Positions 32,133 to 57,613 of a stretch of 64,000 bases of DNA are shown here, in pieces (positions within the stretch are counted from its first letter, which is position 1; each line of letters begins with the position of its first letter). The position numbers and the translations under genes were made by a program. The DNA comes from Candidatus Gastranaerophilales bacterium (GTDB lineage: Bacteria > Cyanobacteriota > Vampirovibrionia > Gastranaerophilales > Gastranaerophilaceae), in the NCBI GenBank assembly GCA_905234865.1, contig CAJOJE010000010.1:1-64000 (forward strand), given 5' to 3'. The notes below the pieces were generated by a model, which saw only the letters and a list, made by a program, of their open reading frames with translations, was not told where the DNA came from and did not search any database.

Positions 32133-32212
32133 TTTGGACCTATCCTTATTTTTTTTCAGACAACTTTGGTTATGGCTTAATAAGTGTATAAAATACATAA
32201 CAACAATTTTAA

Positions 32213-34662: not shown

Positions 34663-34940
34663 ATTCATTTGTCTTGATAATTAAAAATATATTTAAGAAC
34701 TGCGGTTTTTTCCGTTTTATTGGTATACACTTTTTTATCAAGATTTATTTATATTTTCCCTTAAAACCTTTTGCATAAGGGGTTTTACCGCCTAAAATTT
34801 CCGCCTCTTGGAATTTCTTAACAGCTCACTTTACTTGGACTTCGTTTCAGAATTTCTCTTTCAAGAGAAATTCTTCCACTCCGCCGTTTGTTCGCATTAC
34901 GGAACTCGGTGACTTTGCACCTCGTCCGTCAGAAATTCCG
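34663..34940. other. Intergenic region between convergent genes, with a strong palindrome
   Basis: No gene is seen here. An AT-rich part near 34680-34760 contains a CTTGATAA/TTATCAAG pair 55 bases apart. Near 34766-34790 AAAACC and GGTTTT flank a weak stem. An 11-bp arm palindrome, GAATTTCTCTT-TC-AAGAGAAATTC, lies at 34850-34873. The part from 34780 to 34935 is more GC-rich than its surroundings and shares short motifs with 40560-40740. Transcripts of both flanking genes could end here, but no textbook terminator is present. Confidence 0.5.
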
Positions 34941-41319: not shown

Positions 41320-41811
41320 TCATTTTATTCTCTCCCTATACCAAATAACTTTCCCTCTTATATAATCCCCTATTTGATAGCTTTTAAGTTCGGGTTTATA
41401 GGGGATAAAATTAATGTCGATTTTGCCTTTGCTTGATGTGTTCGGGTTATCAAGCCCGAATTCATAGTGTGTAAAGACGGTATTTTTATTTATTTGAATA
41501 TTATATTTTTTGCACAATTCGGCAACAAGTTTAAACATAGCTTCCATTTGAACTTGTGTTATGGGGCAATCGCCTAAGTCCCACTGCCCCTTAAAATTTC
41601 TCATTCCGCATACTGCAACACCTATGCTTCCCGTATTCCCGCCTCCCGTATGAGCTGCATAACATCCGTCATAACAATTCAGGTTATCTTCGGGTTTATA
41701 TTTTCCTTCTTTTACTTTGCCGTTTTTATCGATTACAAAATGATAATGTTCAAAATCATCATTGTTTGGGAAATAATTTCCCGCCGTCCAATGGATTATA
41801 ATTCGTTTCAT
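41320..41811 (-). CDS. N-acetylmuramoyl-L-alanine amidase (Amidase_2/PGRP fold), phage lysis enzyme
   Basis: The start is set at ATG 41811 with AAGGAGG upstream. The frame continues further but would run through the structured element at 41819-41870. The 163 residues show the zinc histidines in IIIHWTAG (His7) and TVFTHYEFG (His115), and AAHTGGGNTGSIGVAVCGM. It would cut peptidoglycan stems to release particles. It is the last gene of the particle operon, after the XhlA-like gene, as in PBSX where lysis genes end the cluster. No cell-wall binding domain is seen. Confidence 0.9.
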   Translation of the reverse strand: MKRIIIHWTAGNYFPNNDDFEHYHFVIDKNGKVKEGKYKPEDNLNCYDGCYAAHTGGGNTGSIGVAVCGMRNFKGQWDLGDCPITQVQMEAMFKLVAELCKKYNIQINKNTVFTHYEFGLDNPNTSSKGKIDINFIPYKPELKSYQIGDYIRGKVIWYRERIK

Positions 41812-41818
41812 ATTCCTC

Positions 41819-41870
41819 CTTGTGCCGCAGAAAGGAAAACGTTGAGTTTTTCTTTCGAGGTACACTATAA
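41819..41870 (-). promoter_or_regulatory. 52-base structured element, copy A, before the amidase
   Basis: Read on the minus strand, the element starts TTATAGTGTACCTCG and ends CTGCGGCACAAG, identical to copy B at 42532. The ends can pair (TGTACC with GGCACA, one A-C mismatch). The 25-base middle forms AAAG-x-AAAA/TTTT-x-CTTT around a 7-base loop. The element runs directly into the amidase SD, and the TAG stop of the XhlA-like gene lies inside it. A translation control element is likely; a DNA recombination footprint is the alternative. Confidence 0.6.
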
Positions 41871-42134
41871 GTCCTCTTTTCTTCTTGCCTTTAAAATTTC
41901 TTTTATCTCGCCAAACCCTTTTGTCATTTCATCTTTTACGTTTTCAAACTCTTTTAAAACGTGCGTTTGAAATTCTTTATACGCATTTAATTCGACAAAA
42001 CTTTGTTTCATATCGTTTAAGATTTCCCTATGCTTTTTTTCAAGTTCTTCGGGTTTAACAAAGATTTTGTTTTGCCAAATAAAAGCAAGAATAATTATAA
42101 TTATCGGTGCAAATTCAATTATTTTTTCGTCCAT
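41865..42134 (-). CDS. XhlA/holin-like protein: membrane helix plus coiled coil
   Basis: The 89 residues have one hydrophobic N-terminal helix (EFAPIIIIILAFIWQ) and a charged coiled coil to the end. This is the size and neighbourhood of phage lysis accessory proteins such as BhlA or, with inverted order, XhlA. AGGGC precedes the ATG. It lies between a 28-residue membrane peptide and the amidase. It could help the amidase cross the membrane, or be a structural tail component; no catalytic motif is expected. Confidence 0.6.
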   Translation of the reverse strand: MDEKIIEFAPIIIIILAFIWQNKIFVKPEELEKKHREILNDMKQSFVELNAYKEFQTHVLKEFENVKDEMTKGFGEIKEILKARRKEDL

Positions 42135-42585: not shown

Positions 42586-43137
42586 TTATACGTATTCGTA
42601 ATCTATAACTATTCTTTCAACTTCTTCAATCGTGTTTGCGCTTTCGATTTCTTCTTTAATTTGGGCGTTTTTTGTCCAAACGAAAGAATGAAGCCTTGTA
42701 ATTAATGCGCCTATGTTCAATAAATCTTCTTTTGTGCATTCAAGCGCAATATTATCCATACCGTACCATTCAATAACATCTTCATCCCCTAAAGTCGTAA
42801 TAATGGCAAGTAGATTTACCTTTTGGTCGGTATCGGAATCAAACAAAATATTTTTATAACTCACTCCTTGAATTAAGGCAAAATCTCTTTCTTTGTCATT
42901 TTCTTTTATTTTTTCTTCCTTTGCCTTATTTAATTCAATAATGGGATAATCGGGATTTAAAACGGGATACGGAATAACTTCCCCCTCGATTTCCTTTTCG
43001 CCCATTATTTCGTTATTTTCTAAAGCGAATAAAAATAATTCGGTATCGACGATTTGTAAATTCTTATTGTGGTTGTAAAGTACAATAAAATTATTTTTTT
43101 CTTCTTCCGTTATCGGTTTTTTAAGTTCATATACCAT
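42586..43137 (-). CDS. Phage fibre-associated protein, DUF4376-like
   Basis: The 183 residues have a C-terminal part with DEDVIEWYGMDNIALECTKED followed by LLNIGALITRL. This is the pattern of the DUF4376 family found next to phage tail fibres. The N-terminal half is charged with a helix around KAKEEKIKENDKERDFALIQ. SD GGAGG precedes ATG 43137. It lies directly downstream of the fibre gene and may assist fibre assembly or attach to it. Confidence 0.6.
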   Translation of the reverse strand: MVYELKKPITEEEKNNFIVLYNHNKNLQIVDTELFLFALENNEIMGEKEIEGEVIPYPVLNPDYPIIELNKAKEEKIKENDKERDFALIQGVSYKNILFDSDTDQKVNLLAIITTLGDEDVIEWYGMDNIALECTKEDLLNIGALITRLHSFVWTKNAQIKEEIESANTIEEVERIVIDYEYV

Positions 43138-43155: not shown

Positions 43156-45141
43156 TTAATTGACATAACCCTGTGCAATCCAATCCGTACCCGTTTGTAC
43201 GCTATTTTCGTGCATTTTAAAAGTAACGCTTGCGGCTGCTTTTGTGTTATAGCCGTTATCAAATATTGAAAAGATACCGTTTCCGACGTTATGATCTATT
43301 GCCCAATGCGGCGCACGATTAAACCCGTAACTTGTATCTTTAAATTCTTTTAAAAACGTTACGGTATAAGCCGTAACGGAGTTTGCCGTTGTCGCCAGAT
43401 ATCCCCATTGAATGCAATAATCGTTAGAATAGAGGATGTAGCCTGAGTTTCCGTTTTTATACGTTTCAACTATATGAACGGTTGAGTTATCGAGTTTTGA
43501 ATTAATTTTTGTTTCAAGTTTTACCTTATTCCCCTCAATCATTCCGTAAATTTCACCCATAGGAAGCGTAAAGTTTTGGTTTTCTTCGTCAAGAGTGTAA
43601 TACGGGGCGCAGCCGTATTGAGTGTACATATCGGATATTCTGTTTCGATAAATCGAATCTACGATTTTACTTCCGGTTTTACTTTCCGTATAAGGAATTT
43701 TAAAACAGGGTCGATAAATAAGGGCGCCGTTAACGTAAATTTTAAAAATATTTAAGTCCATAGAGCCTAAAAGCGGTTGATTACCGAGTATGTTATTACC
43801 TATTTTAAAATACGTTAAATTTGAATATATCGTGCGTTGGGCGGTTGCTTCCCGTTGAAATTCGCCGCCGTTTACCGATAAATAACTTGTTATGGATGTG
43901 CCGTCATATTTAATGTGTACCATATAACCGTCGGCGGTATTTAAAGTTGTTGTTCCTATAACATCCCCCTCCCAAAGGACACCGTCTGCGGAAGAATTAA
44001 AGCACAATTTGTTTAATCCCGAAACAAAAACAACAAGCCCGAAATGTTGTCCATAAGAAGAACCGACGGCAATATTAAAGAGGGTTTGTATGGTGCCGAG
44101 GGTGTTTAATTTGAAAGATATGTAAATATCAAAAGGCTTGGATACATCGTTTACGGGAATCGTTAAATAATTATTCTCGCTAAATCCGCTTGCAATACCG
44201 TCATCCGTAATAACGGGGCTTCCCGTAACCGTATAATCACCCTCTTTTATTACGTCTAAACCTGTTTTATTGCCCGAAAAAACAATTTTACCGTCAGTTT
44301 TTAACATTATTTGTTTAAGGTTAATTGAACCTAAAAACGACTCGTTTAATTGGGCAGTGACAGTACTGTTTCCGAAATTTATATTTGTCGTAACAAGTAG
44401 TTTATTCGCAAGACTTGCACTTGAAAGAAGCGTCCAAGTATTGCCGTTATCGGCTGATATTTTAAAAGATTGAGTTGTTCCGTTATCTTCCAGTTTCAAA
44501 ATATATGAAGTATTTTCGGAAAGATTGTAGGTGAATGAGAAAGTTAATACGGATACACCGTTTGTATCAGCCCAAGCTCCCGCTAATTTACCGTTTCTGA
44601 TTGTTATTGTCTGTGAAACGCATTGCATTATGCGTTGAGCTGTTGTAATATCCGAAGAAGTTTTAAAGAATATTTGAATTTCACAGGTTGAAACGTAAGG
44701 AATTGAATTGTTAATACTTAAATAATTATTCTTGCTAAATCCGCTTACAATCCCGTCATCCGTAATAACGGGACTTCCGACAACGGTAAACTTTGAAAGG
44801 TCAAAAGTGGAATAACGGTAGTTTTTAATGTCGTCGTATATCGTTTGATTATCAAACACAAAACCCGTCTCAAGAGCTTTTGAGTTGTTTAAGATGTCAT
44901 ATTGCATCCCTTGCATATTTTCTAAAATTTCAATTCTTGTTTCATGGTCATCAATATTCAAAGAATTATTATAAATACCGTTTTCTATATGGTTCATATT
45001 CTCTGCATTAACCGGTGTTCCGAGTTCTGTTACATACCCGAAAGCATCGTATATTCGATATGAACCGTCCTCGTTTTGAGAAAAGTCATAAGTTCTTTCC
45101 CTTTCTACGCTTTGGTCTTTCCAATCCGTTTTTTCGTACAT
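43156..45141 (-). CDS. Tail fibre with two LamG-like lectin domains
   Basis: The 661-residue protein starts with a baseplate-proximal section containing YVTELGTPVNAENMNHIENG, common at the start of contractile-phage fibres. Two similar beta-sandwich segments follow, each beginning VxGSPVITDDGIxSGFSxNN. They resemble concanavalin/LamG domains that bind sugars. The C-terminus (about 560-661, FLKEFKDTSYGFNRAPHWAI) looks like a fibre-tip domain. The two units are also similar at the DNA level (44165-44230 and 44717-44785), so the duplication looks recent. It would set the target cell of the particle. Confidence 0.82.
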   Translation of the reverse strand: MYEKTDWKDQSVERERTYDFSQNEDGSYRIYDAFGYVTELGTPVNAENMNHIENGIYNNSLNIDDHETRIEILENMQGMQYDILNNSKALETGFVFDNQTIYDDIKNYRYSTFDLSKFTVVGSPVITDDGIVSGFSKNNYLSINNSIPYVSTCEIQIFFKTSSDITTAQRIMQCVSQTITIRNGKLAGAWADTNGVSVLTFSFTYNLSENTSYILKLEDNGTTQSFKISADNGNTWTLLSSASLANKLLVTTNINFGNSTVTAQLNESFLGSINLKQIMLKTDGKIVFSGNKTGLDVIKEGDYTVTGSPVITDDGIASGFSENNYLTIPVNDVSKPFDIYISFKLNTLGTIQTLFNIAVGSSYGQHFGLVVFVSGLNKLCFNSSADGVLWEGDVIGTTTLNTADGYMVHIKYDGTSITSYLSVNGGEFQREATAQRTIYSNLTYFKIGNNILGNQPLLGSMDLNIFKIYVNGALIYRPCFKIPYTESKTGSKIVDSIYRNRISDMYTQYGCAPYYTLDEENQNFTLPMGEIYGMIEGNKVKLETKINSKLDNSTVHIVETYKNGNSGYILYSNDYCIQWGYLATTANSVTAYTVTFLKEFKDTSYGFNRAPHWAIDHNVGNGIFSIFDNGYNTKAAASVTFKMHENSVQTGTDWIAQGYVN

Positions 45142-45149
45142 TTTTCCTC

Positions 45150-45641
45150 CTATATTATTTTTTCGCTACATCTGAACGTGCCGCACCTTTTTTCGTAAGA
45201 AACAAGCGTAATATTAAAAACAAGGTTAGCAGGCCTTGCATAAAATAAAGCTCTGTATAATTTATCCTCGTAATATTCATCCGTCAGCATTACCGTAAAT
45301 TTATATCTTTCCGCCATATTTGAAATATAGAATTGGGAATTATCGATATTTCTTTTAATAAATCGAACAAGTTCATATCTGTTGAGCTTTCTTTTGCTCA
45401 TCATTTTGTTTAAAACCTGTTTTTTTCGTTCATCCAAAGATAAATTAGCATTGTATTTTATTGAATAATCCGCCTCAAACCTTTTTATGCCTATTTCGCT
45501 GCAAGTAGTGACGCAGCATTCTAAAATTATGTCCGACAGTTTTTTTCTCATTTTATCTATTTCGGGTTCAATCGCTTCAAGAATTTCTTCCGTATACTTC
45601 TCTTGAGCAATAAAACTCGGTAAATTTTCTTTAAGTCCCAT
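45150..45641 (-). CDS. Baseplate protein, XkdU/YmfQ-like (DUF2313)
   Basis: The 163 residues begin MGLKENLPSFIAQEKYTEEI and contain the YSIKYNANLSLDERKKQVL segment typical of Mu gp48/XkdU-type proteins that link the baseplate J protein to the fibre. It lies between the J-like gene (11-base gap) and the fibre gene, as in PBSX. Confidence 0.78.
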   Translation of the reverse strand: MGLKENLPSFIAQEKYTEEILEAIEPEIDKMRKKLSDIILECCVTTCSEIGIKRFEADYSIKYNANLSLDERKKQVLNKMMSKRKLNRYELVRFIKRNIDNSQFYISNMAERYKFTVMLTDEYYEDKLYRALFYARPANLVFNITLVSYEKRCGTFRCSEKII

Positions 45642-45652
45642 AAATCCTCCTT

Positions 45653-46702
45653 TTAAACAAGTGCAATATCGCCTGCGACGGGAATTTGATATTCATTAAC
45701 CAAAACTCCCGAAGTTGAATTATTCAATAAATAATCCGATACATCCAAAACTCCGCCGATTTCAAAAATTAAATTTGAAATATAAAGATAAGAAACAATA
45801 TCGCTTGACAGATTATCAAAGTATTCTTCCATTTTAGAGCGCAAAGAACTCTTTACATATTCGATATTTACACTCTCATCAAGAACAACTGAAGCACTCA
45901 CGTTAATTTCTAAATATTGAAGCGGATATACTTCAACTTTGGCATTTATAATCTGCTCTTTTTCTATTGTTTCTCTTACCTGCTCAATAAGTTCGCTTGA
46001 AACAGGTGCATTTTGAAGTGCGGATATATAAACCCCGACTTTTCCCGCACCGGTTGTAAAAGCATCTTTCACAACGACGTTTTTAACTCCCGATACGGAT
46101 TTTGCCCACATAATATAATCTTTAACGTTTGAATTACAGGCATCATCTTTTAAATACTCAAGTATTCGTTCTCTATAATCTTCGACATTTTCTTCTTCAA
46201 ACCCGTCGTATGCAAAATCGGGATTTGTAATTTGCGCATTCAAAAATCCCGTATAAGATGTGTAAAATTCGTTCAGGCTGTTTGCTTCAATATTTCCGAT
46301 TGTCCCTTTTTCAAGACATATCATTTTTATTGTTGCTTCACCGTTTTCATCGGTTATTGAAGTTTCAAAATTTCTAAAAACTATATTATTTTCGGTTTTT
46401 GCCTTTAATTCGGTTGTGATTATCGTATTAGGCAAAGCCCCCGTTATTTTTGCATAAACAATTGCGCAAGTTGCATTTTTTCTATACACTCCGACTTCTT
46501 CGCCTCTTATTTTTAAATGTTCTTCATCCGCAGTTTTTACAAAAGCATTATCAAGAACAGGCTCAATTAAAGTATCAATTATATTTGCTATTTCATAACT
46601 TACGGAGCCTATAATATCTTGAGATGTTCCTCCCTCAATTTGGGTGGGGGAAGTTGTAAGTCTTGAATTGATACTTGTTTGAATATCTTCTTTTGTGGTC
46701 AT
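45653..46702 (-). CDS. Baseplate wedge protein J (XkdT-like)
   Basis: The 349 residues fit gpJ/XkdT: N-terminal TSPTQIEGGTSQDIIGSVSY, LKIRGEEVGVYRKNATCAIV, KAKTENNIVFRNFET, then EENVEDYRERILEYLKDDAC and VKNVVVKDAFTTGAGKVGVY. These proteins form the wedges that trigger sheath contraction. It lies downstream of the gp25-like gene with a 12-base gap. Length and order match the PBSX family. Confidence 0.92.
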   Translation of the reverse strand: MTTKEDIQTSINSRLTTSPTQIEGGTSQDIIGSVSYEIANIIDTLIEPVLDNAFVKTADEEHLKIRGEEVGVYRKNATCAIVYAKITGALPNTIITTELKAKTENNIVFRNFETSITDENGEATIKMICLEKGTIGNIEANSLNEFYTSYTGFLNAQITNPDFAYDGFEEENVEDYRERILEYLKDDACNSNVKDYIMWAKSVSGVKNVVVKDAFTTGAGKVGVYISALQNAPVSSELIEQVRETIEKEQIINAKVEVYPLQYLEINVSASVVLDESVNIEYVKSSLRSKMEEYFDNLSSDIVSYLYISNLIFEIGGVLDVSDYLLNNSTSGVLVNEYQIPVAGDIALV

Positions 46703-46714
46703 TTTTTCTCCTTA

Positions 46715-47152
46715 TTAATTTTTATAAGTAACGGAATGTTCAAAATCGCCGTAAACGGTAGAAACATTGAATGTTGCGTTCACAAGAGAACCCTTTTTAT
46801 CAAAAGTAAAATCATTAACGCCTTTTATGTAGGGGTTTGACAAAAGGGCTTCTTCTATATACCTTTTCAACTCTGATTTTAGGAGTGAATTTTTTAAACT
46901 CCTTCCGAATAATTTTGTTATTTCGTTTCCATAATCGTTAGAATAAGCCCTGTGCCTGTATCGTGCGGTTTCTACGTTTAAAACTTTTAAAATCCATATT
47001 TTTATTGCATCGTTTTTTGAAACAGTATAGAAATCGCCGTTTTTTACAAGCAATTCCATAGTTTCCAAATTTCTTGCAAGCTCATATATAACGGGTAATT
47101 CCGTTTGTTTTTCGGTATTTTCCGCAGCAGGCGGTATAAAATTAAAACTCAA
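46715..47152 (-). CDS. Baseplate protein, XkdS/gp25-like (DUF2634)
   Basis: The 145 residues contain AIKIWILKVLNVETARYRHR and SYDYGNEI-type spacing (AYSNDYGNEITKLFG), then KRYIEEALLSNPYIKGVNDF. This matches the DUF2634 family (gp25-like lysozyme-fold baseplate initiator of the sheath). It is followed by the J-like gene. A short N-terminal Glu/Lys part is variable. Confidence 0.85.
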   Translation of the reverse strand: MSFNFIPPAAENTEKQTELPVIYELARNLETMELLVKNGDFYTVSKNDAIKIWILKVLNVETARYRHRAYSNDYGNEITKLFGRSLKNSLLKSELKRYIEEALLSNPYIKGVNDFTFDKKGSLVNATFNVSTVYGDFEHSVTYKN

Positions 47153-47167: not shown

Positions 47168-47596
47168 TTAATTGCAAACCGTAACTTTTTGTATAATAAG
47201 ATATTGGTTTGCCCCAAGTTCAAATACGGCAACGCTGTCGCCCTCATTCAAGTTATAAATTGATTGCCAATTTTTAAAAAATAAATAAAACTCTTTTAAA
47301 AAATCAGGGAAACTTCCTTCAATTAACGCTGAAAATTCGGGCGATTTGTACGCCGTTGAATAAATAAAATTTTGTATTGCGGAAATTGTTTCAACGTTTT
47401 GAGAAATCAAAGGAGATATAATCAAAGGATGAACATAAATTGTGTCATGATATGAAGCTCCGATTTCAATGTTGTCATAAGTAAGTATCAAAGGAGAAAC
47501 CGATTTTACCGTACAAATTTTAATACCTTTTGTTTTTTTACCGTTATTAAAATCATCCAGAACATCCAATATTTTATTTGCAAAATTACAGGACAT
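47168..47596 (-). CDS. Baseplate protein, XkdR-like (DUF2577)
   Basis: The 142 residues show KICTVKSVSPLILTYDNIEI near the start and GDSVAVFELGANQYLIIQKV at the end, the DUF2577 pattern of an OB-fold-like tail protein. The middle (about 75-115) is helical and larger than in PBSX. It overlaps the hub gene by 11 bases. It may act as or near the puncturing tip; no separate spike gene is seen. Confidence 0.75.
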   Translation of the reverse strand: MSCNFANKILDVLDDFNNGKKTKGIKICTVKSVSPLILTYDNIEIGASYHDTIYVHPLIISPLISQNVETISAIQNFIYSTAYKSPEFSALIEGSFPDFLKEFYLFFKNWQSIYNLNEGDSVAVFELGANQYLIIQKVTVCN

Positions 47597-48356
47597 ATTC
47601 CCCCCTTTCTTTTAATGTTAAAGTTACAAGATGAGTGTCGCTAAAAATATGACAATCGTCCTCTACAACAAATTCGCCGCTTATTTTTTTATCAAAATCA
47701 ACAAGTTTAATAACATCTCCCGCCACAATATAAGAATTAACATCCCTTATTGTTATTTTGGAAAAACCTCCTTTAACGTCGGCTTTAAACATACTTGAAA
47801 CAACATTTTTTCTGCAGTCGAGCTCAAAAGAAGATTTTGAAACAAGCGGAAATAAAACTTTTAAATTTGAATATCCGTCCGTATAAAGTTTAAAATCATC
47901 CTTGTAAAGCGCATAAAGCGCACTTGTTATAACATCAAACGCAGTAAGATTTCCGAAACTTACGATATTAATGCTTTGTTTTATTTTGTTTAAATCAACA
48001 CCCAAGTTAAAATTAAACCCTCCTAAAACTTTTGAAATTATTTCAAATAAACTGCCTTGATACCTTCCTTTTACATAAGTTTTTAAAAGAAGGGAAACAT
48101 AATCCTGTGCTTGAATTTTAATAATGTTTTGTTCTTCAATGTAAACAATTTCAATAACTTCGCCTTTAAAAACATTCATATTGTTATCGGATATTAACAC
48201 GTTTGAACCTATTTTTACTCTGTATTCGGGAATATCCGACAAAGGAGAATAAACAAATTCAAATTTTGCAATTCTTGAAGCGGAACTCAAACTGCCTTGT
48301 ATTGAAACTCCTTTTAATATTGTTTTTATTTCCGTATCATTAATGAAAATTTTCAA
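47586..48356 (-). CDS. Baseplate hub protein, XkdQ/gpD-like
   Basis: The 256 residues begin KIFINDTEIKTILKGVSIQG, continue with RIAKFEFVYSPL and NNMNVFKGEVIEIVY and IIKIQAQDYVSLLLKTYV, then FEIISKVLGGFNF. This is the fold of late-control gpD/XkdQ hub proteins at the tip of contractile tails. It overlaps the LysM gene by four bases (ATGA). It is somewhat shorter than PBSX XkdQ (about 325). Confidence 0.85.
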   Translation of the reverse strand: MKIFINDTEIKTILKGVSIQGSLSSASRIAKFEFVYSPLSDIPEYRVKIGSNVLISDNNMNVFKGEVIEIVYIEEQNIIKIQAQDYVSLLLKTYVKGRYQGSLFEIISKVLGGFNFNLGVDLNKIKQSINIVSFGNLTAFDVITSALYALYKDDFKLYTDGYSNLKVLFPLVSKSSFELDCRKNVVSSMFKADVKGGFSKITIRDVNSYIVAGDVIKLVDFDKKISGEFVVEDDCHIFSDTHLVTLTLKERGEYVL

Positions 48357-49018
48357 TTTATCGCTCCTTGAACAGAAAGTTTTACTCCGGGCATTTGTTT
48401 ATTAACGTTTGCTATATTGTTGTTTGAAGCAAGAGTTTTAAAATTCAGGGAATACTTATTTGCAAGCGAATAAACGGTATCCCCCGCTTTCATAAGTAAA
48501 ATTTTCGGTGTATATAAACCGTTTGCTCTTTTGTATAATCCAAAAGCACCCTGCGATTTACCGACAGGATTTCTATATTCCATAACTTCAAGAACATAGG
48601 GTTTAGAAGATGTACTTTCTCTTATGGTTTCAACAAATGAAACGACAAAACATTCCATGTTAATTTCTTCGTCAATAACAAGTCTTATTTTGATTTGTTC
48701 GAAAGCCCATTTTTTTAAAATTTCAACGGCCTTTTTTGAAGAATAGTTATATTGGACAAAATTCCCGTTACCGTTCCTATCGTACATAAGATTGGAATTT
48801 GTACTGAAAACACTGTCATCTTCAGGCAAAAAATGTGCAAGTTTTATCCTGAGAGGTTCTCTTTCTCCCGTAATATTAATATTTCCAAAGCCCAAAACAT
48901 TGTAAGTTTGGTAAAGTTTTTCATATTTAATATCAATACTGACGGGATTAATTGGAAGTATAATTTGTTCGCCCGAAACGGGTGAATAAAGCATAATGTT
49001 TAATCTTTTTGAAGGCAT
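48353..49018 (-). CDS. LysM-domain tail protein (XkdP-like)
   Basis: The 221 residues have an N-terminal tail-initiator part (LYSPVSGEQIILPINPVSID) with PLRIKLAHFLPED, and a C-terminal LysM domain (LMKAGDTVYSLANKYSLNFK, then LASNNNIAN) that binds peptidoglycan or tube proteins. XkdP normally lies directly after the tape measure gene. Here it directly follows the tube gene, with a hairpin in between and no tape measure. Confidence 0.88.
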   Translation of the reverse strand: MPSKRLNIMLYSPVSGEQIILPINPVSIDIKYEKLYQTYNVLGFGNINITGEREPLRIKLAHFLPEDDSVFSTNSNLMYDRNGNGNFVQYNYSSKKAVEILKKWAFEQIKIRLVIDEEINMECFVVSFVETIRESTSSKPYVLEVMEYRNPVGKSQGAFGLYKRANGLYTPKILLMKAGDTVYSLANKYSLNFKTLASNNNIANVNKQMPGVKLSVQGAIN

Positions 49019-49035
49019 TTTTTATTCCTTTTAAA

Positions 49036-49062
49036 TTCAAGGGAAGAATTTCTTCCCTTGAA
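49036..49062 (-). terminator. Strong hairpin between tube and LysM genes
   Basis: A 12-bp perfect stem (TTCAAGGGAAGA / TCTTCCCTTGAA) with a 3-base loop starts three bases after the tube stop. The minus strand after it is only moderately T-rich (AATTTAAAAGG), so it may attenuate transcription or protect the upstream mRNA, keeping baseplate output below capsid, sheath and tube output. Confidence 0.7.
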
Positions 49063-49065
49063 AAA

Positions 49066-49488
49066 TTACTCACCGATTGAATCAACAACAATAACATCGG
49101 ATGCTCTATACTGAAAAGTTTTATTTATAAGAGCACCTTTTTTCCAATTTGCAACTGGAAAACTGTCAAACGTAACTCCCGTTATTGTGTATCCTTCTTC
49201 TTTTCCGTTTGCCGCAGGGTCAGACAAATTGCACTCTATCGTAAAGCGCATATTGTTATTTTTTAAATACTTTGCACATAAATTTGAAGAAATAGAATTA
49301 ACCGCCTCAAAAGACAATTCGCCCGAATATGTTATGGAAACCGCTTGTCTGTCTACCGTAAAACCAACTATAACATCCTCGTAAGACGGGGTTACCGTTA
49401 AGGAAATATTTTTCAGTATTCCTATTTCTTCCCCCTCAAGCCAAACTCTGCCGTAGGTTCCCCTTAAAGCACTTTCTACCGTTGCCAT
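49066..49488 (-). CDS. Tail tube protein (XkdM-like, DUF2001)
   Basis: The 140 residues show LRGTYGRVWLEGEEIGILKN, ITYSGELSFEAVNSISS and TITGVTFDSFPVANWKKGAL, the pattern of the XkdM tube family. The protein would stack as hexamers inside the sheath. Start and sheath stop overlap as TAATG. Length is normal. Confidence 0.9.
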   Translation of the reverse strand: MATVESALRGTYGRVWLEGEEIGILKNISLTVTPSYEDVIVGFTVDRQAVSITYSGELSFEAVNSISSNLCAKYLKNNNMRFTIECNLSDPAANGKEEGYTITGVTFDSFPVANWKKGALINKTFQYRASDVIVVDSIGE

Positions 49489-50570
49489 TATTCACCCTCG
49501 CTTTCTAACGCTTGAAAAAGATAAAATCCTAAATCCAAATCCTCCATACAGTCAACGGGAGAACAAACTCCGTCCAAAAGAACAAGAGAGCCCGTATTAT
49601 ATCTTAGGATATCTTCTTTTGACATATCATCGGTACTTATACCTTTTGCTTCAATATAATTTTTTGTTTTTTCGTAACTTATATAAACTTCATTGTCGTT
49701 TTCTTCTTCCAAAAGTCCGTCTGAAGCAAGATTTTTTAAATATGTATTGACTGCCCCTATAAAGCGTTTTTTGTTTGCATAGTTATTTACATATTTTCCG
49801 ACGTAACTTTTTCTGAAAGTCGATATAATGTCGGATGCTATCATATCCATAATGTTAATTATTCTGATTTTTTGAAACGCTTCCGTTACACCGTCCGTTA
49901 ATGTCACCAGAGAATTGACCGCACGTCCCAATTTATAACTTCCGTCCTGATAAATTATCGTCAAACCGCCGTTCGCAACAACATCATCGGGATTTGGATT
50001 TAAAGTTAAGTCGACAATTTCATCAAGCTCATAATAAGTAAGCGATCTGTTTTGGGATAACCCTGCCAAAGCTCCCGCTATTCTTGCGGTATATTGCCCT
50101 GCGGTAAGAGTTTTTGTTTCATTGTCAACAGAAATTTGGACAGGGTTTGATATAAAATTAATTAAAAATTCGTTGTCTATATTTTGAGCGTTGGCAAAAA
50201 TTCCTATCGAATAATTGTTATTTTCTCTTTGAAGTTTCAAATAATTTTTTAATCCCGTCATATCTTCATCTTGTGCTTCAGGGTAACAAAGAAGGTAGTT
50301 GTCGTATTTATTCAATTTTTGTTCTAAATTAACAAGGGTGTCTTTTTTTAATACGGTTACTTTTTTCGGACATCCCAAAAAACATAACTGAACTAAAAGA
50401 TAATCGTCATTATTGAAATCGGTTTTATCAACTTTTGATAAAGATGTGTATGTAACTTGGTCAACGTCCGAATTTAAAATCAAAATAACATGACCTCTCA
50501 TTTGCCTTTTTATGGCAATTGCAGCCAATTCTTTAAACGTGACCGTAAAAGTCGGTTGTTGGTTAGGCAT
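49488..50570 (-). CDS. Tail sheath protein (XkdK-like)
   Basis: The 360 residues contain TYTSLSKVDKTDFNNDDYLL, VKYPEAQDED-type middle (LLCYPEAQDEDMTGLKNYL), AGQYTARIAGALAGLSQNRS, then YELDEIVDL and a C-terminal NYANKKRFIGAVNTYLKNLA. This matches contractile sheath proteins of the PBSX type. At 360 residues it is about 100 shorter than XkdK, mainly at the N-terminus and inserted domain. It overlaps the upstream gene by eight bases. Confidence 0.92.
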   Translation of the reverse strand: MPNQQPTFTVTFKELAAIAIKRQMRGHVILILNSDVDQVTYTSLSKVDKTDFNNDDYLLVQLCFLGCPKKVTVLKKDTLVNLEQKLNKYDNYLLCYPEAQDEDMTGLKNYLKLQRENNNYSIGIFANAQNIDNEFLINFISNPVQISVDNETKTLTAGQYTARIAGALAGLSQNRSLTYYELDEIVDLTLNPNPDDVVANGGLTIIYQDGSYKLGRAVNSLVTLTDGVTEAFQKIRIINIMDMIASDIISTFRKSYVGKYVNNYANKKRFIGAVNTYLKNLASDGLLEEENDNEVYISYEKTKNYIEAKGISTDDMSKEDILRYNTGSLVLLDGVCSPVDCMEDLDLGFYLFQALESEGE

Positions 50571-50997
50571 TTTTATTCTCCTTTAAAGTAATATCCAATA
50601 TTTGCATATTTTCTCCCGCATCTTCTTCATAGATGTAAAAACTAAGTTTGAACGTCATAAGAAGTTTGTCGTCTTTAATTGAAAAACGGGGAGTATCAAC
50701 GGTAATTTTCTTTCCCTCTATTTCAATAACCGGCAAGAGGGCGCTTTTCAAAAAATCAACCGAGTCAAGCAATTCAGTCGTTTTATTTGAAGGTGATTTC
50801 ATATAAACCAATTCAAAATTAAAATCGCACAGTTGCTTCATTTGAGAAAGATTAGGTTCAATCGTAAAATCTTTAATCGTTAAAATTGCATAGGGAAAGC
50901 CCGTATGTTTGATTTCTTCAAAATGAAAAATTATATTGTTGTCTTTATTGTATAAAGCATTTCTTATGGAGTTTTTTATTGTTTCCGTTATTGTCAT
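50563..50997 (-). CDS. Tail completion/terminator-like protein
   Basis: The start is taken at ATG 50997, two bases after the stop of the previous gene; the longer frame from 51030 would overlap it. The 144 residues begin MTITETIKNSIRNALYNKDN and contain FPYAILTIKDFTIEPNLSQM. The small alpha/beta pattern and position directly upstream of the sheath fit phage tail terminator or neck proteins (XkdJ position). The identity rests mainly on position. Confidence 0.6.
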   Translation of the reverse strand: MTITETIKNSIRNALYNKDNNIIFHFEEIKHTGFPYAILTIKDFTIEPNLSQMKQLCDFNFELVYMKSPSNKTTELLDSVDFLKSALLPVIEIEGKKITVDTPRFSIKDDKLLMTFKLSFYIYEEDAGENMQILDITLKENKNA

Positions 50998-50999
50998 AT

Positions 51000-51335
51000 T
51001 CAACTTTCTAAGATTTTCTTTTGAGTACATTTAATTTGAATTGTTAAATTGTATTTTTTGATTTCTCCCGCCCTCAACTTATAATTTTCGCCTCTTTGCG
51101 TTTGAACATACAAAGTATCGTTTTCTTTGATTTGAATATTTTGGTCATAATCAAGAAAAAGCGTGTAATTTGAAATAATATAGGGCGTTTTGTCGAGATA
51201 TACGACGTTTTCCAACCCTGACGACAAGTGACAGGGAATATTTTGGGCAACAATAATCGGTTCAAGATAATGAACTTCACCCGATACGCATTGATACGTT
51301 TCCCTTGTTGCCGTCAATTTATCCTTCCTCATCAT
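51000..51335 (-). CDS. Head-tail connector/closure-like protein
   Basis: The 111 residues are mostly beta-strand (YECVSGEV-like YQCVSGEVHYLEP, VVYLDKTPYIISNYTLFLDY, LYVQTQRGENYKLRAGEIKK) with a Cys-containing end. This fits head-closure proteins placed between the gp6-like connector and tail terminator (XkdH/YqbH position). GAGGAAT lies upstream; the frame overlaps the previous gene by 17 bases. No specific motif, so the call depends on gene order. Confidence 0.55.
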   Translation of the reverse strand: MMRKDKLTATRETYQCVSGEVHYLEPIIVAQNIPCHLSSGLENVVYLDKTPYIISNYTLFLDYDQNIQIKENDTLYVQTQRGENYKLRAGEIKKYNLTIQIKCTQKKILES

Positions 51336-51639
51336 GTTTTATTCCTCTTACGACTTTGAATGCTTCCAATCTGCCAAAGTAGGGCGATACGGTAGAAAAA
51401 CTTATCGACATATCGCCCTCCGATAAGGATTGAACATTATCGAGTTTAGTATCATTTGAAAGACAATCGGCAATTACCGTTGATACGGACGGTAGAATAA
51501 TTTCATCCAATTCGTCACGATTTAGGTAATTTAAAATTTCGCTTAATTTTGCTTCGATTTTTAATCGCAAAATCAAAGTATTTTCTAAGCCGGTTAAATT
51601 TATTATGTTTTCAACAAGTTTATCTTTTAACATGTTCAA
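51319..51639 (-). CDS. Head-tail connector, gp6-like (DUF3199-type)
   Basis: The 106 residues are helical (VENIINLTGLENTLILRLKI, IEAKLSEILNYLNRDELDEI) and end with SEGDMSISFSTVSPYFGRLE. Helical connectors with this 'SxGDxSxSF' end lie directly after the capsid gene in many tailed phages. It follows the capsid by 30 bases. The product would join a portal ring, yet no portal gene is present here. Confidence 0.68.
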   Translation of the reverse strand: MNMLKDKLVENIINLTGLENTLILRLKIEAKLSEILNYLNRDELDEIILPSVSTVIADCLSNDTKLDNVQSLSEGDMSISFSTVSPYFGRLEAFKVVRGIKHDEEG

Positions 51640-51669: not shown

Positions 51670-52497
51670 TTAGCTGCCTGCTTGCGTTTTATGAACGTAG
51701 ATTGCACCTTTTTTGGAATTCAAAACAAACGCATCATGGATTATTCTTCCTTCTATAAGAGAGCCTGAAATGCCCGGGGGATTTTCGTGGACTTTGTATT
51801 CGCTCAATTTAACGGGAGCAACAAGAGCGCTTGTATGAGTTACGACAAAATTCACATAATCGGTAAAATAACTTGAAGGAACAACAACAACGGGAGTTCC
51901 GTCGATTTTTCCCACTTGACCGTTTATTACGATTTCTTGACCCAAATCGGAATTTTTAATAAAAGTATCATCGAGCTTCAAAAACTTATAGTATGAAGGG
52001 GTAACAAGAGCAACTCTACCTGTTAGAGGCACTTTTTCATCGGATATTGTTTCCATTGCCTCTAAAAATTGTTCATAGGCATTTGTTTTTGTGGTTGAAG
52101 AAACTTGGGTAGTTTTTGCACCTTGAACGAGTTTTGAAATTCTGTACATATCTACCGCAGGAATAACAACCTCGTCAAGTTCCCTTCTTAGCGCAGCGCC
52201 CGAAGGTTTTGAACCCGCTTGAGATATTTCATACATTTTATCAATCGTAAAAGTAAAACTTTTATCTTGAGTTAAGGTCATGGTTTGAACCGTATCAGAC
52301 AATTCATCCGGGGTTCCGTATCTTTGAGTTCCCGTTTTTGTATAATCCGTCAGTTGAGATGTAGTGATTGAATAAACTTTAACGGTGTCAACCCCGTCCC
52401 AATCAAAGTCATTGTTAATAATCGAATCCGTCAAAGAACCGATTTTAAATCTTTCATCAACTTTTGATGAATACTTTAGTGCTAAATTTTGAGTCAT
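51670..52497 (-). CDS. Major capsid protein (HK97-fold family)
   Basis: The 275 residues show the N-arm (LALKYSSKVDERFKIGSLTD), the axial part (RKTGTQRYG-type YTKTGTQRYGTPDELSDTVQ), LTQDKSFTFTIDKMYEISQA, REDEVVIPAVD-like RRELDEVVIPAVDMYRI, VALVTPSYYKFLKLDDTF and GKIDGTPVVVVPSSYF. This is the P22/N4-type subgroup of HK97-fold capsids. The scaffold gene lies directly upstream. Its presence argues against a headless tailocin. Confidence 0.88.
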   Translation of the reverse strand: MTQNLALKYSSKVDERFKIGSLTDSIINNDFDWDGVDTVKVYSITTSQLTDYTKTGTQRYGTPDELSDTVQTMTLTQDKSFTFTIDKMYEISQAGSKPSGAALRRELDEVVIPAVDMYRISKLVQGAKTTQVSSTTKTNAYEQFLEAMETISDEKVPLTGRVALVTPSYYKFLKLDDTFIKNSDLGQEIVINGQVGKIDGTPVVVVPSSYFTDYVNFVVTHTSALVAPVKLSEYKVHENPPGISGSLIEGRIIHDAFVLNSKKGAIYVHKTQAGS

Positions 52498-52517: not shown

Positions 52518-53003
52518 CTACAATGTGTTCGTATCAAACCCTTCAATAAAAGGGTCATATTCTTCTTTGCCGTTTGAAACTTCCACGACGGGAGTGTTCA
52601 TGTAATTTTGCAAAAATTCTTGTTTTTGAATTTGTAAAAAGTTTTTTAAAGTTTCTATGTTCATTTTTGTCTTTGACATATCTTTAAATTCGTAAACCAA
52701 ATCCAAAACAACGGGGCTTATTCCCGCTTCATCCAAAAGAACGATTGTTTCTTCTTTTTCTTTTGCCATTTGGCACTCATCCTCTTTTTCCCGATATTTT
52801 TTCTTGATTTCTTCAAGTTCTGCTCTTGCAAGTTCAAGCTCACTCATGCCTGTCTTTTTAATTTGTTCCTCGGCTTCTTTTTTAATTTGTTCCTCTTTTA
52901 ATTCAAATTCCGCTCGAAGCTCGGCTTTTAATTTTTCCATTTCGGATTCGGAATAAGTTTTCTTTTCTTCTTCCTGAAGAACGGGTTTTTCTGCTTCTTC
53001 CAT
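52518..53003 (-). CDS. Capsid scaffold protein (GP20-like)
   Basis: The 161 residues are dominated by a charged coiled coil (SEMEKLKAELRAEFELKEEQ and onward) and a conserved C-terminal end (LLDEAGISPVVLDLVY, then KTKMNIETLKNFLQ). This matches scaffolding proteins that guide capsid assembly and are encoded just before the capsid gene. No protease domain is seen. Confidence 0.82.
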   Translation of the reverse strand: MEEAEKPVLQEEEKKTYSESEMEKLKAELRAEFELKEEQIKKEAEEQIKKTGMSELELARAELEEIKKKYREKEDECQMAKEKEETIVLLDEAGISPVVLDLVYEFKDMSKTKMNIETLKNFLQIQKQEFLQNYMNTPVVEVSNGKEEYDPFIEGFDTNTL

Positions 53004-53018
53004 TTAACTGTCCTTTCT

Positions 53019-53240
53019 TTATCCCTTTTGATAGGGTTTCTTTTGCTCCACATTTTTATTATAGTTATTGTTAAATCCGGCATTTTTTAGGGTAGTGAAA
53101 TACTTGCTACTGTTGGTTTTTAGAGAATTTAACTGAGAAATTATTATTTCGTTTTTTGTGGTATGGGATTTTTTTGAAAGATTTTCAAGCCAAAGATAGT
53201 CAAAAACAGGGATAGACACCGTAAAATTTACATATTCCAT
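53019..53240 (-). CDS. Small ribbon-helix-helix-like protein, first gene of the particle operon
   Basis: The 73 residues begin MEYVNFTVSIPVFDYLWLEN, a beta-strand followed by LSKKSHTTKNEIIISQLNSL, which fits a ribbon-helix-helix DNA-binding unit. The rest is Asn/Lys-rich. AGAGGAAAAGG precedes ATG 53240. Its place between operator-like repeats and the scaffold gene suggests an operon regulator, though an antitoxin-like or packaging role is also possible. Confidence 0.55.
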   Translation of the reverse strand: MEYVNFTVSIPVFDYLWLENLSKKSHTTKNEIIISQLNSLKTNSSKYFTTLKNAGFNNNYNKNVEQKKPYQKG

Positions 53241-53588: not shown

Positions 53589-54053
53589 TTAAAACAAAAC
53601 AGCGTTCTTATAATTCAGCGCACTGACAACGGAGGCTGAGAATATAATCAAGAATACAAAGAACAAAAGCCCCGCAAAACCTTTCTGTACATCAGGAAAC
53701 GTCATATTTTTTGCTTTATTCAATTTTCTCGTTTCCTCAAATTCCTTATGAAAAGGTTGCTCGGGTAATTTTGTTTCAAGATATTCAAGGATTTTAGCAT
53801 ATTTAATTTTAATCATAACTTGATAAGAATCAATATTTAACCACCATAAAATAGAAACCGCAATTCCAAATGCCGCTGTCACAATCATGGGCACAATTGC
53901 CGGTGAAAGAGCGTAAAACACATAGCAAGCAGTTAGGAGCGTAAAAGCAAACACGAAATAAAATCTGTTTGTTTGAAAATGCCTGTCTATAAAGCGCTCC
54001 TTAGCCTCGTTAAACACTCTGTATTGCTCAACTATTAATGATGTATCATCCAT
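53589..54053 (-). CDS. Small membrane protein, RipA/SLATT-like (tentative)
   Basis: The 154 residues have hydrophobic segments at about 31-49, 53-72 and 126-146, with a cytoplasmic-type linker (NIDSYQVMIKIKYAKILEYL) and short charged ends. The 'SYxxxxxxKYxxxLExLExxLP' pattern is close to RipA-family octameric membrane proteins and similar SLATT-type proteins. GGAG lies before ATG 54053 and a TATACT box upstream. It sits between the particle operon and rpiB, without an obvious partner. Confidence 0.55.
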   Translation of the reverse strand: MDDTSLIVEQYRVFNEAKERFIDRHFQTNRFYFVFAFTLLTACYVFYALSPAIVPMIVTAAFGIAVSILWWLNIDSYQVMIKIKYAKILEYLETKLPEQPFHKEFEETRKLNKAKNMTFPDVQKGFAGLLFFVFLIIFSASVVSALNYKNAVLF

Positions 54054-55869: not shown

Positions 55870-56226
55870 ATGAAGCAAGTTAAGAAAAAAAATCGCTCTC
55901 ACCGTCATATTCCAAAATTTAAAAAGTATTACCGTTACAATATGCAGGATGAGAACGGAGTCAAATACATATCATTGCTTCAGCTTACATACTCTAAAAT
56001 TGCGGATGAAGTTTTTAAGACAAAAAGAAAGATAACGGGAGATTGGATAATAGAAATGAACGGAATTACATTATATCTTGACCCCCTTTGGGGCGCACAA
56101 GCGGAAATTACGGGCACATCAAACTTATCAATTTTAAAAAGATTAAGACTGCATATAATGTTTTTAAATTTGATAAAAAGCGGAAAAAGCATTGTAGGAG
56201 CACTTGAAGCATGCCTTTTGATTTAA
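55870..56226 (+). CDS. Unknown small protein in the terminase module
   Basis: The 118 residues start with a very basic segment (KQVKKKNRSHRHIPKFKKYY) and continue with a mixed region (VFKTKRKITGDWIIEMNGIT) and an amphipathic C-terminal helix (NLSILKRLRLHIMFLNLIKS). It lacks a recognisable domain; the basic start fits nucleic acid binding. It overlaps the next gene by 16 bases. It may be a small terminase subunit or an accessory DNA-binding protein, based on position only. Confidence 0.6.
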   Translation: MKQVKKKNRSHRHIPKFKKYYRYNMQDENGVKYISLLQLTYSKIADEVFKTKRKITGDWIIEMNGITLYLDPLWGAQAEITGTSNLSILKRLRLHIMFLNLIKSGKSIVGALEACLLI

Positions 56227-56435
56227 GCGAAACAATACAAAAATTAAACGAGCTTGAAAAATTGGCTATGAGCCCGAACGAAAAAGGGGACATAAACCTT
56301 GCACTTGCGGTTAAAATTGAAGAATTAAAAGCAAAATTCGCACAAATGAAATTTGAAAACGAGGATGAAAAAAAGTATGTCCTGAATATTTACGTTAAAA
56401 ATCAACGACAAAAAAAACTAATCGACGAAATTTAA
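56211..56435 (+). CDS. Small coiled-coil protein before the terminase, possible small subunit
   Basis: The 74 residues are mostly helical and charged (LSETIQKLNELEKLAMSPNE, LAVKIEELKAKFAQMKFENE). The ATG at 56211 lies inside the end of the previous gene. It precedes the terminase large subunit by 11 bases, which is the usual place of the small terminase subunit, but no helix-turn-helix can be seen. Confidence 0.55.
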   Translation: MPFDLSETIQKLNELEKLAMSPNEKGDINLALAVKIEELKAKFAQMKFENEDEKKYVLNIYVKNQRQKKLIDEI

Positions 56436-56446
56436 TCCGCCTCTTT

Positions 56447-57613
56447 ATGGCATATTTAAAATTATCAAACGTGTTTGAAAAAATCGCACATTCGTACAAA
56501 AAATACCGCTACATTATTAATCAAGGCGGAACATCGAGCACAAAAACTTTCTCGACGCTTCAATTTCTTGTTATTTTAGCGCTTAAATATGATTTTGAAA
56601 TTGATATCGTAGGATTAACTCAAGGACATTTAAAATCAGGAGTTTTGCTCGATATGCCAAAAGTTATGTCCCAATTCGGGCTTAATTTTTATACCATGTA
56701 CTCAAAAACAAATAAAAATTTAGAATTTCATAAAAGTACGATTAATTTTATTTCCGTAGATACAATAGGAAAAGCTCATGGCGGGAGAAGGGATATTCTT
56801 TATTTGAACGAAGCAAATCACCTTAACTACAAAATAGCGGAACAATTAATCATAAGAACAAGAGAAAAAGTTTTCATAGATTTTAACCCGACGAGCCATT
56901 TTTGGGTTCATAGCGAAATTTTGAACAACGAAAAAGAAAACGCCGTATTGATTAAATCAACATACAAAGATAACCCTTTTTTGGAAAAAGAAATTATACA
57001 AGCGCTTGAATCAAGAATGAAGGATGAAAATTTTTGGAGAGTATACGGGCTTGGCGAAGTAGGACTTTTGGAAGGAAGAATTTTTACAAACGTTGAGATT
57101 AAAGATTTTGACAAAAACGCTTTCGACAAATATTATAACGGCATAGACTGGGGCTTTTCGACCGACCCTTTTGCATTTATAAGATGTGCAATCGAAAACG
57201 ACAAATTATATTTAACGGAAGAAATTTATTCGACAAATCTTTTAAATAAAGATTCAATTCCCTTGGTTAAAAAAATAATAGGCAGAGAATACGTTACTTG
57301 CGATTCATCGGAACCAAAGAGTATTTCAGAATATCTTAATTCCGGAATTTGTGCAATAGGAGCAAAAAAGGGCAAAGGAAGCATTGAAACGGGAATAAAA
57401 TTTCTTCAAAGTTTTTCAAAAATTTTTATCCACAAAAGCCTTGTAAACGCACAAAAAGAATTTTTTAATTATTGTTTTAAAAAAAATTTTGACGGAGAGA
57501 TAATCCCTGTTCCGGAAGATACAAACAATCATCTTATAGATGCTCTAAGGTATGCTCTTGAAGATTTAACGGGTAAAGATACAATTACCGTAATTAAGGG
57601 GCTTAGAATTTAA
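56447..57613 (+). CDS. Phage terminase large subunit
   Basis: This is the packaging motor that cuts and pumps DNA into a prohead. The ATPase P-loop reads GGTSSTKT (27-34) and Walker B reads LYLNEAN (118-124), the Asn-Glu form of this subfamily. The RNase-H-like nuclease has GIDWGFSTDP (Asp234), CDSSEP (Asp286) and NHLIDALRYAL (Asp365). All three acidic residues are present. The 388 residues are short but complete. It is transcribed divergently from the particle cluster, with rpiB and fba between. No portal gene follows; a terminator and HU come next. Confidence 0.92.
   Translation: MAYLKLSNVFEKIAHSYKKYRYIINQGGTSSTKTFSTLQFLVILALKYDFEIDIVGLTQGHLKSGVLLDMPKVMSQFGLNFYTMYSKTNKNLEFHKSTINFISVDTIGKAHGGRRDILYLNEANHLNYKIAEQLIIRTREKVFIDFNPTSHFWVHSEILNNEKENAVLIKSTYKDNPFLEKEIIQALESRMKDENFWRVYGLGEVGLLEGRIFTNVEIKDFDKNAFDKYYNGIDWGFSTDPFAFIRCAIENDKLYLTEEIYSTNLLNKDSIPLVKKIIGREYVTCDSSEPKSISEYLNSGICAIGAKKGKGSIETGIKFLQSFSKIFIHKSLVNAQKEFFNYCFKKNFDGEIIPVPEDTNNHLIDALRYALEDLTGKDTITVIKGLRI

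Follow-up and report, generated by a model that had tools for sequence, protein, structure and literature searches.

Can a contractile phage tail be built without a tape measure, and if so, what would set its length? This question is raised by a phage-like gene cluster of a Candidatus Gastranaerophilales bacterium, carried on a stretch of 64,000 nucleotides (the window; contig CAJOJE010000010.1, positions 1 to 64,000). In the tail modules of PBSX and of Clostridioides myophages (XkdK-XkdT), the genes run in the order sheath, tube, chaperone, tape measure, LysM, XkdQ, DUF2577, DUF2634, J and Gp48. The window cluster shares this tail order but lacks the chaperone and the tape measure, and its head genes differ. 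Whether tube and sheath can start and stop growing without a tape measure has usually been studied with broken mutants.

A sequence-only reading of this DNA had noted that no tape measure separates the tube and LysM genes and that the gap between them folds into a hairpin. Both observations hold. The gap (49019-49065, minus strand) is exactly 47 nt long and contains no ORF, and the hairpin can be drawn either as a 12-bp stem with a 3-nt loop or with 13-nt arms. The cluster and the nearby terminase module comprise the following features, some of which are compared with Dulem virus 31, a free phage described below.

41320..41865, minus strand: PGRP/amidase endolysin (phrog_5867, E 2e-36; 60% identical to the Dulem virus 31 PGRP)
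41865..42134, minus strand: small membrane protein in the holin/spanin position (weak matches alone)
42586..43137, minus strand: tail fibre accessory protein (DUF4376)
43156..45141, minus strand: tail fibre (phrog_17334; N-terminal part resembles the Dulem virus 31 fibre)
45150..45641, minus strand: Mu Gp48-like baseplate protein (PF10076, E 1.6e-14)
45653..46702, minus strand: baseplate J (PF04865, E 7e-47)
46715..47152, minus strand: sheath initiator (DUF2634, XkdS-like; PF10934, E 1.7e-28)
47168..47596, minus strand: DUF2577 protein (XkdR-like; E 0.0022, below cut-off; 35% identical to the syntenic Dulem virus 31 protein)
47586..48356, minus strand: YqbQ/XkdQ-like baseplate hub (PF24032, E 2.4e-12)
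48353..49018, minus strand: LysM tail/baseplate hub protein (XkdP-like; LysM domain, E 6.3e-6; phrog_380/5184)
49019..49065, minus strand: 47-nt junction, the site of the relatives' chaperone and tape-measure module
49036..49062, minus strand: perfect 13-bp palindrome/hairpin, a few nt 3′ of the tube stop codon
49066..49488, minus strand: tail tube protein (DUF2001, XkdM-like; Pfam E 2.7e-17; 72-83% identical in the genus)
49488..50570, minus strand: tail sheath (PF17482, E 1.2e-11; 55% identical to the Dulem virus 31 sheath)
50563..51030, minus strand: phrog_525 protein in the tail terminator/completion position (E 5.6e-11)
51000..51335, minus strand: head-tail connector (phrog_615)
51319..51639, minus strand: head-tail connector (phrog_132)
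51670..52497, minus strand: major capsid protein (phrog_422, E 6.6e-60; 62% identical to that of Dulem virus 31)
52518..53003, minus strand: scaffold protein (phrog_172 / DUF4355)
53019..53240, minus strand: small conserved protein at the operon head (in 9/9 genus genomes)
55870..56226, plus strand: conserved gene of the terminase module (the same three-gene module occurs in relatives)
56211..56435, plus strand: small conserved protein before the terminase (70-80% identical in the genus), possibly the terminase small subunit
56447..57613, plus strand: terminase large subunit, TerL (PF04466/PF17288; 59% identical to that of Dulem virus 31)

Loss of the chaperone and tape-measure module

The window species belongs to the genus Ca. 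Galligastranaerophilus (Gastranaerophilales), which was sampled with nine genomes, namely the window species and eight relatives. The tail cluster is present as a single copy in all nine. Among the 58 genomes searched, the LysM gene was confined to these nine and missing from the other 49. All eight relatives carry a tail-assembly chaperone gene (~130 aa; phrog_4976, E 5e-9) after the tube gene, exactly at the position of the window junction. In seven of the eight, an A AAA AAG heptamer, in frame and strictly conserved, lies directly before the chaperone stop codon, and the −1 frame of the chaperone encodes a conserved extension of ~45 aa. The heptamer is followed in these seven genomes by a stem in which 85% of cells are paired (a level reached by 0 of 500 shuffles) and in which five of 14 pairs have changed on both sides (at least five in 6 of 500 shuffles); its covariation score was matched by 0 of 500 shuffles.

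The next ORF in the same seven relatives is short (197-275 aa) and ends with a conserved C-terminal motif. Its AlphaFold model is poor (pLDDT 50, mostly disordered) and was dropped as proof of identity; similarity to the tape measure of Dulem virus 31 was not detected. We therefore call this protein tape-measure-like on the basis of its position, its adjoining chaperone and its length. An in-frame slippery heptamer with a T-like extension in the −1 frame, placed before the tape measure, is the G/GT arrangement of phage lambda. In lambda, both G and GT attach to the tape measure, and the T portion brings in the tube protein (PMC5009743).

The nearest free phage found is Dulem virus 31 (PP511318.1), whose complete circular genome comes from lemur faeces. 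It shares both gene set and gene order with the window system, and its chaperone has the A AAA AAG heptamer and the extension, as in the seven congeners. Unlike the window species, it has a 482-aa tape measure between the tube and LysM genes. Its record is filed under Microviridae; the genome is actually that of a 35.8 kb tailed phage with a terminase, a portal and a contractile tail.

The eighth relative, G002, has a reduced module (G002:C2, about 99.5-100.1 kb). Its chaperone is kept, the shift site and extension are absent, and the next ORF encodes only 55 aa that align to the C-terminal motif of the tape-measure-like proteins. The window species has neither chaperone, slippery heptamer, extension nor tape-measure-like gene. 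In the window species the lambda-like frameshift extension has thus disappeared along with the ruler; G002 has lost the shift site and the extension but retains the chaperone and the 55-aa remnant. Alignment of the junction with relatives, a check proposed in the sequence-only reading, confirms that chaperone and tape measure are missing from their canonical place. The chaperone stands exactly here in 8/8 relatives; for the second gene the picture is graded, with a tape-measure-like gene in seven and a 55-aa remnant in one.

In a tree rooted on Dulem virus 31, the window species is nested inside the genus, which indicates that the absence is derived. Presence of the module at this exact position in seven congeners and one free phage likewise argues for a loss rather than an original design. 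Gene content and tree position together show that the window species has undergone a derived loss. A single clade of the window species and G002, as expected from one stepwise loss, was neither backed nor rejected (AU p 0.37). From the nearest free phage found to the window species, the ruler runs through 482 aa, 197-275 aa (seven species), 55 aa (one species) and none, and the genus thus offers a natural series in which the other tail genes are kept.

The boundaries of the loss can be placed approximately. The final ~20 nt of the junction (AATTTAAAAGGAATAAAAA) resemble the relatives' LysM leader, and the sequence after the palindrome matches the LysM leader of one relative in particular (G003). 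By this match, the loss spans from just past the tube stop codon to the LysM ribosome-binding site. The join is clean: the tube stop codon is intact, the LysM ribosome-binding site is intact and homologous to that of relatives, and there are no partial codons. The sequence-only reading had named a relative with an unbroken tape measure gene here, together with a recent deletion scar, as what would speak against it. The unbroken module does exist at this position in the seven congeners and the free phage; the junction retains zero codons of chaperone or tape measure, and a recent deletion scar was looked for there and is not visible.

The palindrome at the junction

The palindrome consists of perfect 13-nt arms with 1 nt between them. 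In the alternative fold with the 12-bp stem, the minimum free energy is −18.9 kcal/mol (z −3.8), and 0 of 200 shuffles were equally stable. Perfect arms of at least 12 nt occur four times in the whole window, compared with 0.3 expected under a Markov model; with at least five G+C per arm the model expects 0.0. The palindrome is found once in the 1.87 Mb genome and is absent from the viral contigs searched, and we discarded the idea that it belongs to a repeat family. When structural-gene gaps were compared across the nine genus genomes, equal stability was reached solely in the relatives' frameshift region. Comparison by eye revealed no similarity to the frameshift stem, and an origin as a remnant of that stem was also set aside.

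On the coding strand the palindrome is followed by TTTAAAAGG, and a U tract is absent, so the hairpin is not a standard terminator. It is also not among the sites listed by an intrinsic-terminator scan, and this role was rejected. An Rfam scan of the window returned zero families. The hairpin lies a few nt past the tube stop codon, a place expected for an element that shields the head-sheath-tube message at its 3′ end or attenuates it. Its role is probably either 3′ protection of this message or damping of read-through; either effect would leave tube and sheath in excess over the baseplate proteins. Alternatively, the hairpin may have arisen as a by-product when the module was deleted, or it may reflect a faulty assembly. 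Elsewhere in the window, another perfect 12-bp hairpin (34849-34874) occupies a G+C-richer stretch just downstream of groEL, where all Rfam families fall below threshold.

Dispersed phage genes at host loci

The element occupies three chromosomal places: the tail/head cluster, the three-gene terminase module (55870-57613) and the locus of a portal gene, which lies on a different contig. TerL is 77-82% identical in eight of the nine genus genomes; the ninth, G001, is 89% complete. The portal is conserved at 72-79% in 9/9 genomes, and it adjoins ftsY- and nusB-like genes (names from sequence reading). It is SPP1-type (PF05133, E 9.5e-85 in the window genome) and so differs from that of PBSX. The PBSX portal model (TIGR01540) has no match in the window genome and none above cut-off in the genus, and identity as a PBSX portal was rejected. 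The term PBSX-like used in the sequence-only reading therefore describes the tail module, but not the portal or the spread of head, portal and terminase genes over host loci, a spread that this reading had not picked up.

The flanks of all three loci in the window genome are host (housekeeping) genes, and integrase, replication and excision genes are absent from these structural-gene loci. Tail, capsid and portal genes occupy single-copy host loci in 9/9 genus genomes. None of the viral contigs searched encodes a close tube or capsid protein. An active prophage was rejected on these grounds, namely the lack of viral-contig relatives, the host flanks and the dispersal of the genes. Dulem virus 31, unlike the window genome, holds everything in one locus, along with a repressor, a replisome organizer and a minor capsid gene. 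Identities between the two are 59% for TerL, 54% for the portal, 62% for the capsid, 55% for the sheath, 42% for baseplate J and 60% for the PGRP. The range of 42-62% spanned by the first five of these proteins indicates that the dispersed loci derive from one Dulem-31-like phage.

Capsid, portal, terminase and tail genes of phage origin are thus all found in one genome. Judged from its genes, the cluster is best read as a domesticated phage resembling a gene transfer agent (GTA) and inherited genus-wide. RcGTA-type agents likewise have head, tail and terminase genes that are vertically inherited at host loci. They differ in their siphovirus-like tail and other phage ancestor, whereas the window system has genes for a contractile tail and no tape measure at all. 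The open-access literature searched contained no pairing of ‘gene transfer agent’ with Gastranaerophilales, and with Melainabacteria it returned open-access papers that, by their titles and abstracts, are on other subjects alone. The cluster points to a GTA-like particle in the Gastranaerophilales, which are non-photosynthetic gut relatives of cyanobacteria.

Distant capsid matches elsewhere in the family were traced to another cluster, of podovirus-like type, and were rejected as the same element. A capsid match occurs in at least 16 of 41 sampled Gastranaerophilaceae genera, a tally that includes the window's own genus, with one per genome. The podovirus-like loci that were read (L084-L097) contain an amidase, an internal virion protein (phrog_3287), a capsid, a small terminase (phrog_51), a connector (phrog_332), TerL and a holin-like protein; their gene order is common and their host flanks are partly so. 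The cluster is a candidate for a second, family-wide GTA-like system. Within 41320-42134, the window amidase is close to that of the podovirus-like cluster (E about 1e-53 to 1e-64), as is the small membrane protein (E 1e-11 to 1e-19). The relatives' amidase gave no match near their tail cluster. A gene of the Octameric membrane protein family (PF24838, E 7e-17; 53589-54053) adjoins the window cluster; it lies beside the cluster in 8/9 genus genomes and, in L096 and L097, close to the podovirus-like cluster as well.

A proposed minimal contractile tail and its alternatives

In the ancestor, the module consisted of a tape measure and a tail-assembly chaperone that was extended by −1 frameshifting in the manner of lambda G/GT. 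After domestication it shrank (482 aa in the nearest free phage found, 197-275 aa in seven species and 55 aa in one), and in the window species it was deleted from the tube stop codon to the LysM leader. If the remaining genes still build a tail, its formation could be pictured as follows. RcGTA has a tape measure of ~216 residues (113 + 83 + 20) that matches five tube discs (PMC7296036), and proteins of 197-275 aa would fit tails of RcGTA-like shortness. At 1.5 Å per residue, 55 aa could measure about two rings. A ruler reduced to a few tube rings would imply a very short tail. The baseplate hub might then nucleate tube and sheath without a ruler, and the terminator and neck might cap both, so that length would be set by baseplate nucleation and neck capping. 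Precedents point in both directions. The type VI secretion system has no tape measure and still operates its contractile tube and sheath (PMC5924787), but it is cell-anchored and has no capsid, whereas the window system has a capsid, a portal and a terminase. Tube or sheath proteins without their regulators form tubes of uncontrolled length (PMC6466441).

The state of the remaining tail genes bears directly on this picture. All 14 aligned head and tail genes are intact in the window species, and the tail genes are free of stops and frameshifts. Its terminal branches show no systematic lengthening relative to module-keeping species: the tube branch is 0.15 (0.11-0.28 in G004, G005 and G007) and the sheath branch 0.31 (0.17-0.30 in the same three). 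The YqbQ-like hub is the fastest-evolving protein in the branch comparison. In pairwise comparisons dN/dS lies at about 0.1-0.4 and dS is close to saturation; this low ratio is an average over a history that lies mostly before the loss. The lack of stops, the branch comparison and the low dN/dS favour a minimal contractile tail made without ruler or chaperone.

The sequence-only reading had offered three outcomes (tail length set differently, a tape measure elsewhere, or no full tail), and rightly so, since each keeps some probability. On balance we lean, by somewhat better than an even chance, towards a GTA-like domesticated-phage locus that has lost the module and makes a minimal contractile tail without a tape measure. 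The more specific proposal, that this GTA lineage evolved by stepwise ruler shortening a functional contractile tail of defined minimal length without ruler or chaperone, is tentative and would be on the doubtful side. Loss of function is an unlikely explanation, in which no tail is made and the locus is kept for a role of the capsid or in lysis, or is in early decay. Several tape-measure deletions in TP901-1 gave no tails (PMC5099701), and the sister species G002 already has a reduced module without a shift site. However, the window tail genes carry no stop or frameshift, their sheath and tube branches are not clearly longer than in module-keeping species, and the loss branch is long, with dS near saturation, so that an old loss should have left visible decay.

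Transfer of the tape-measure function to another place, or to an unrelated protein, seems to us quite improbable. The terminase and portal already lie at other loci, and the tape-measure-like family evolves so fast that its profile fails to recover two family members when each is left out, making it too weak against a relocated, divergent copy. The genome search that the sequence-only reading had called for found no tape measure, within this limited sensitivity. Across the window genome, PF10145 returned noise alone (E 0.06, below cut-off), the relatives' tape-measure profile nothing, and the relatives' chaperone noise alone (0.011, with stops); a second chaperone noise match lies within a histidine-kinase-like ORF (called from sequence motifs) and was rejected. 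One chaperone query finds 8/8 relatives at E ≤ 1e-32. Because this easily detected chaperone is absent genome-wide too, a tape measure that was relocated and diverged without its chaperone is unlikely, and the cluster itself has no extra inserted gene of that kind.

There is very little chance, in our judgement, that the absence is an artefact of assembly or strain, in which a 1.1 kb module present in the population was dropped from the assembly and the palindrome marks a faulty join. The window species is represented by one MAG (1.87 Mb), as is each other species, and a unique perfect palindrome at the join is unusual. Against this, the MAG consists of 22 contigs at 99.6% completeness, the join is clean in biological terms at the tube stop codon and the LysM ribosome-binding site, with no partial codons, and the same module is partially reduced in the sister species. 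Our preferred reading remains a minimal tail built without a ruler, and the window species offers a naturally occurring test of this possibility.

Two further features of the window lie apart from the phage-derived loci. A TIR-like protein (17079-19145) is encoded beside a SLOG-like membrane protein (15384-17066), and sequence reading suggests a possible defence pair. A 4034-aa autotransporter-like ORF with repeated motifs occupies 20094-32198, and after it comes a hairpin whose tail is T-rich.
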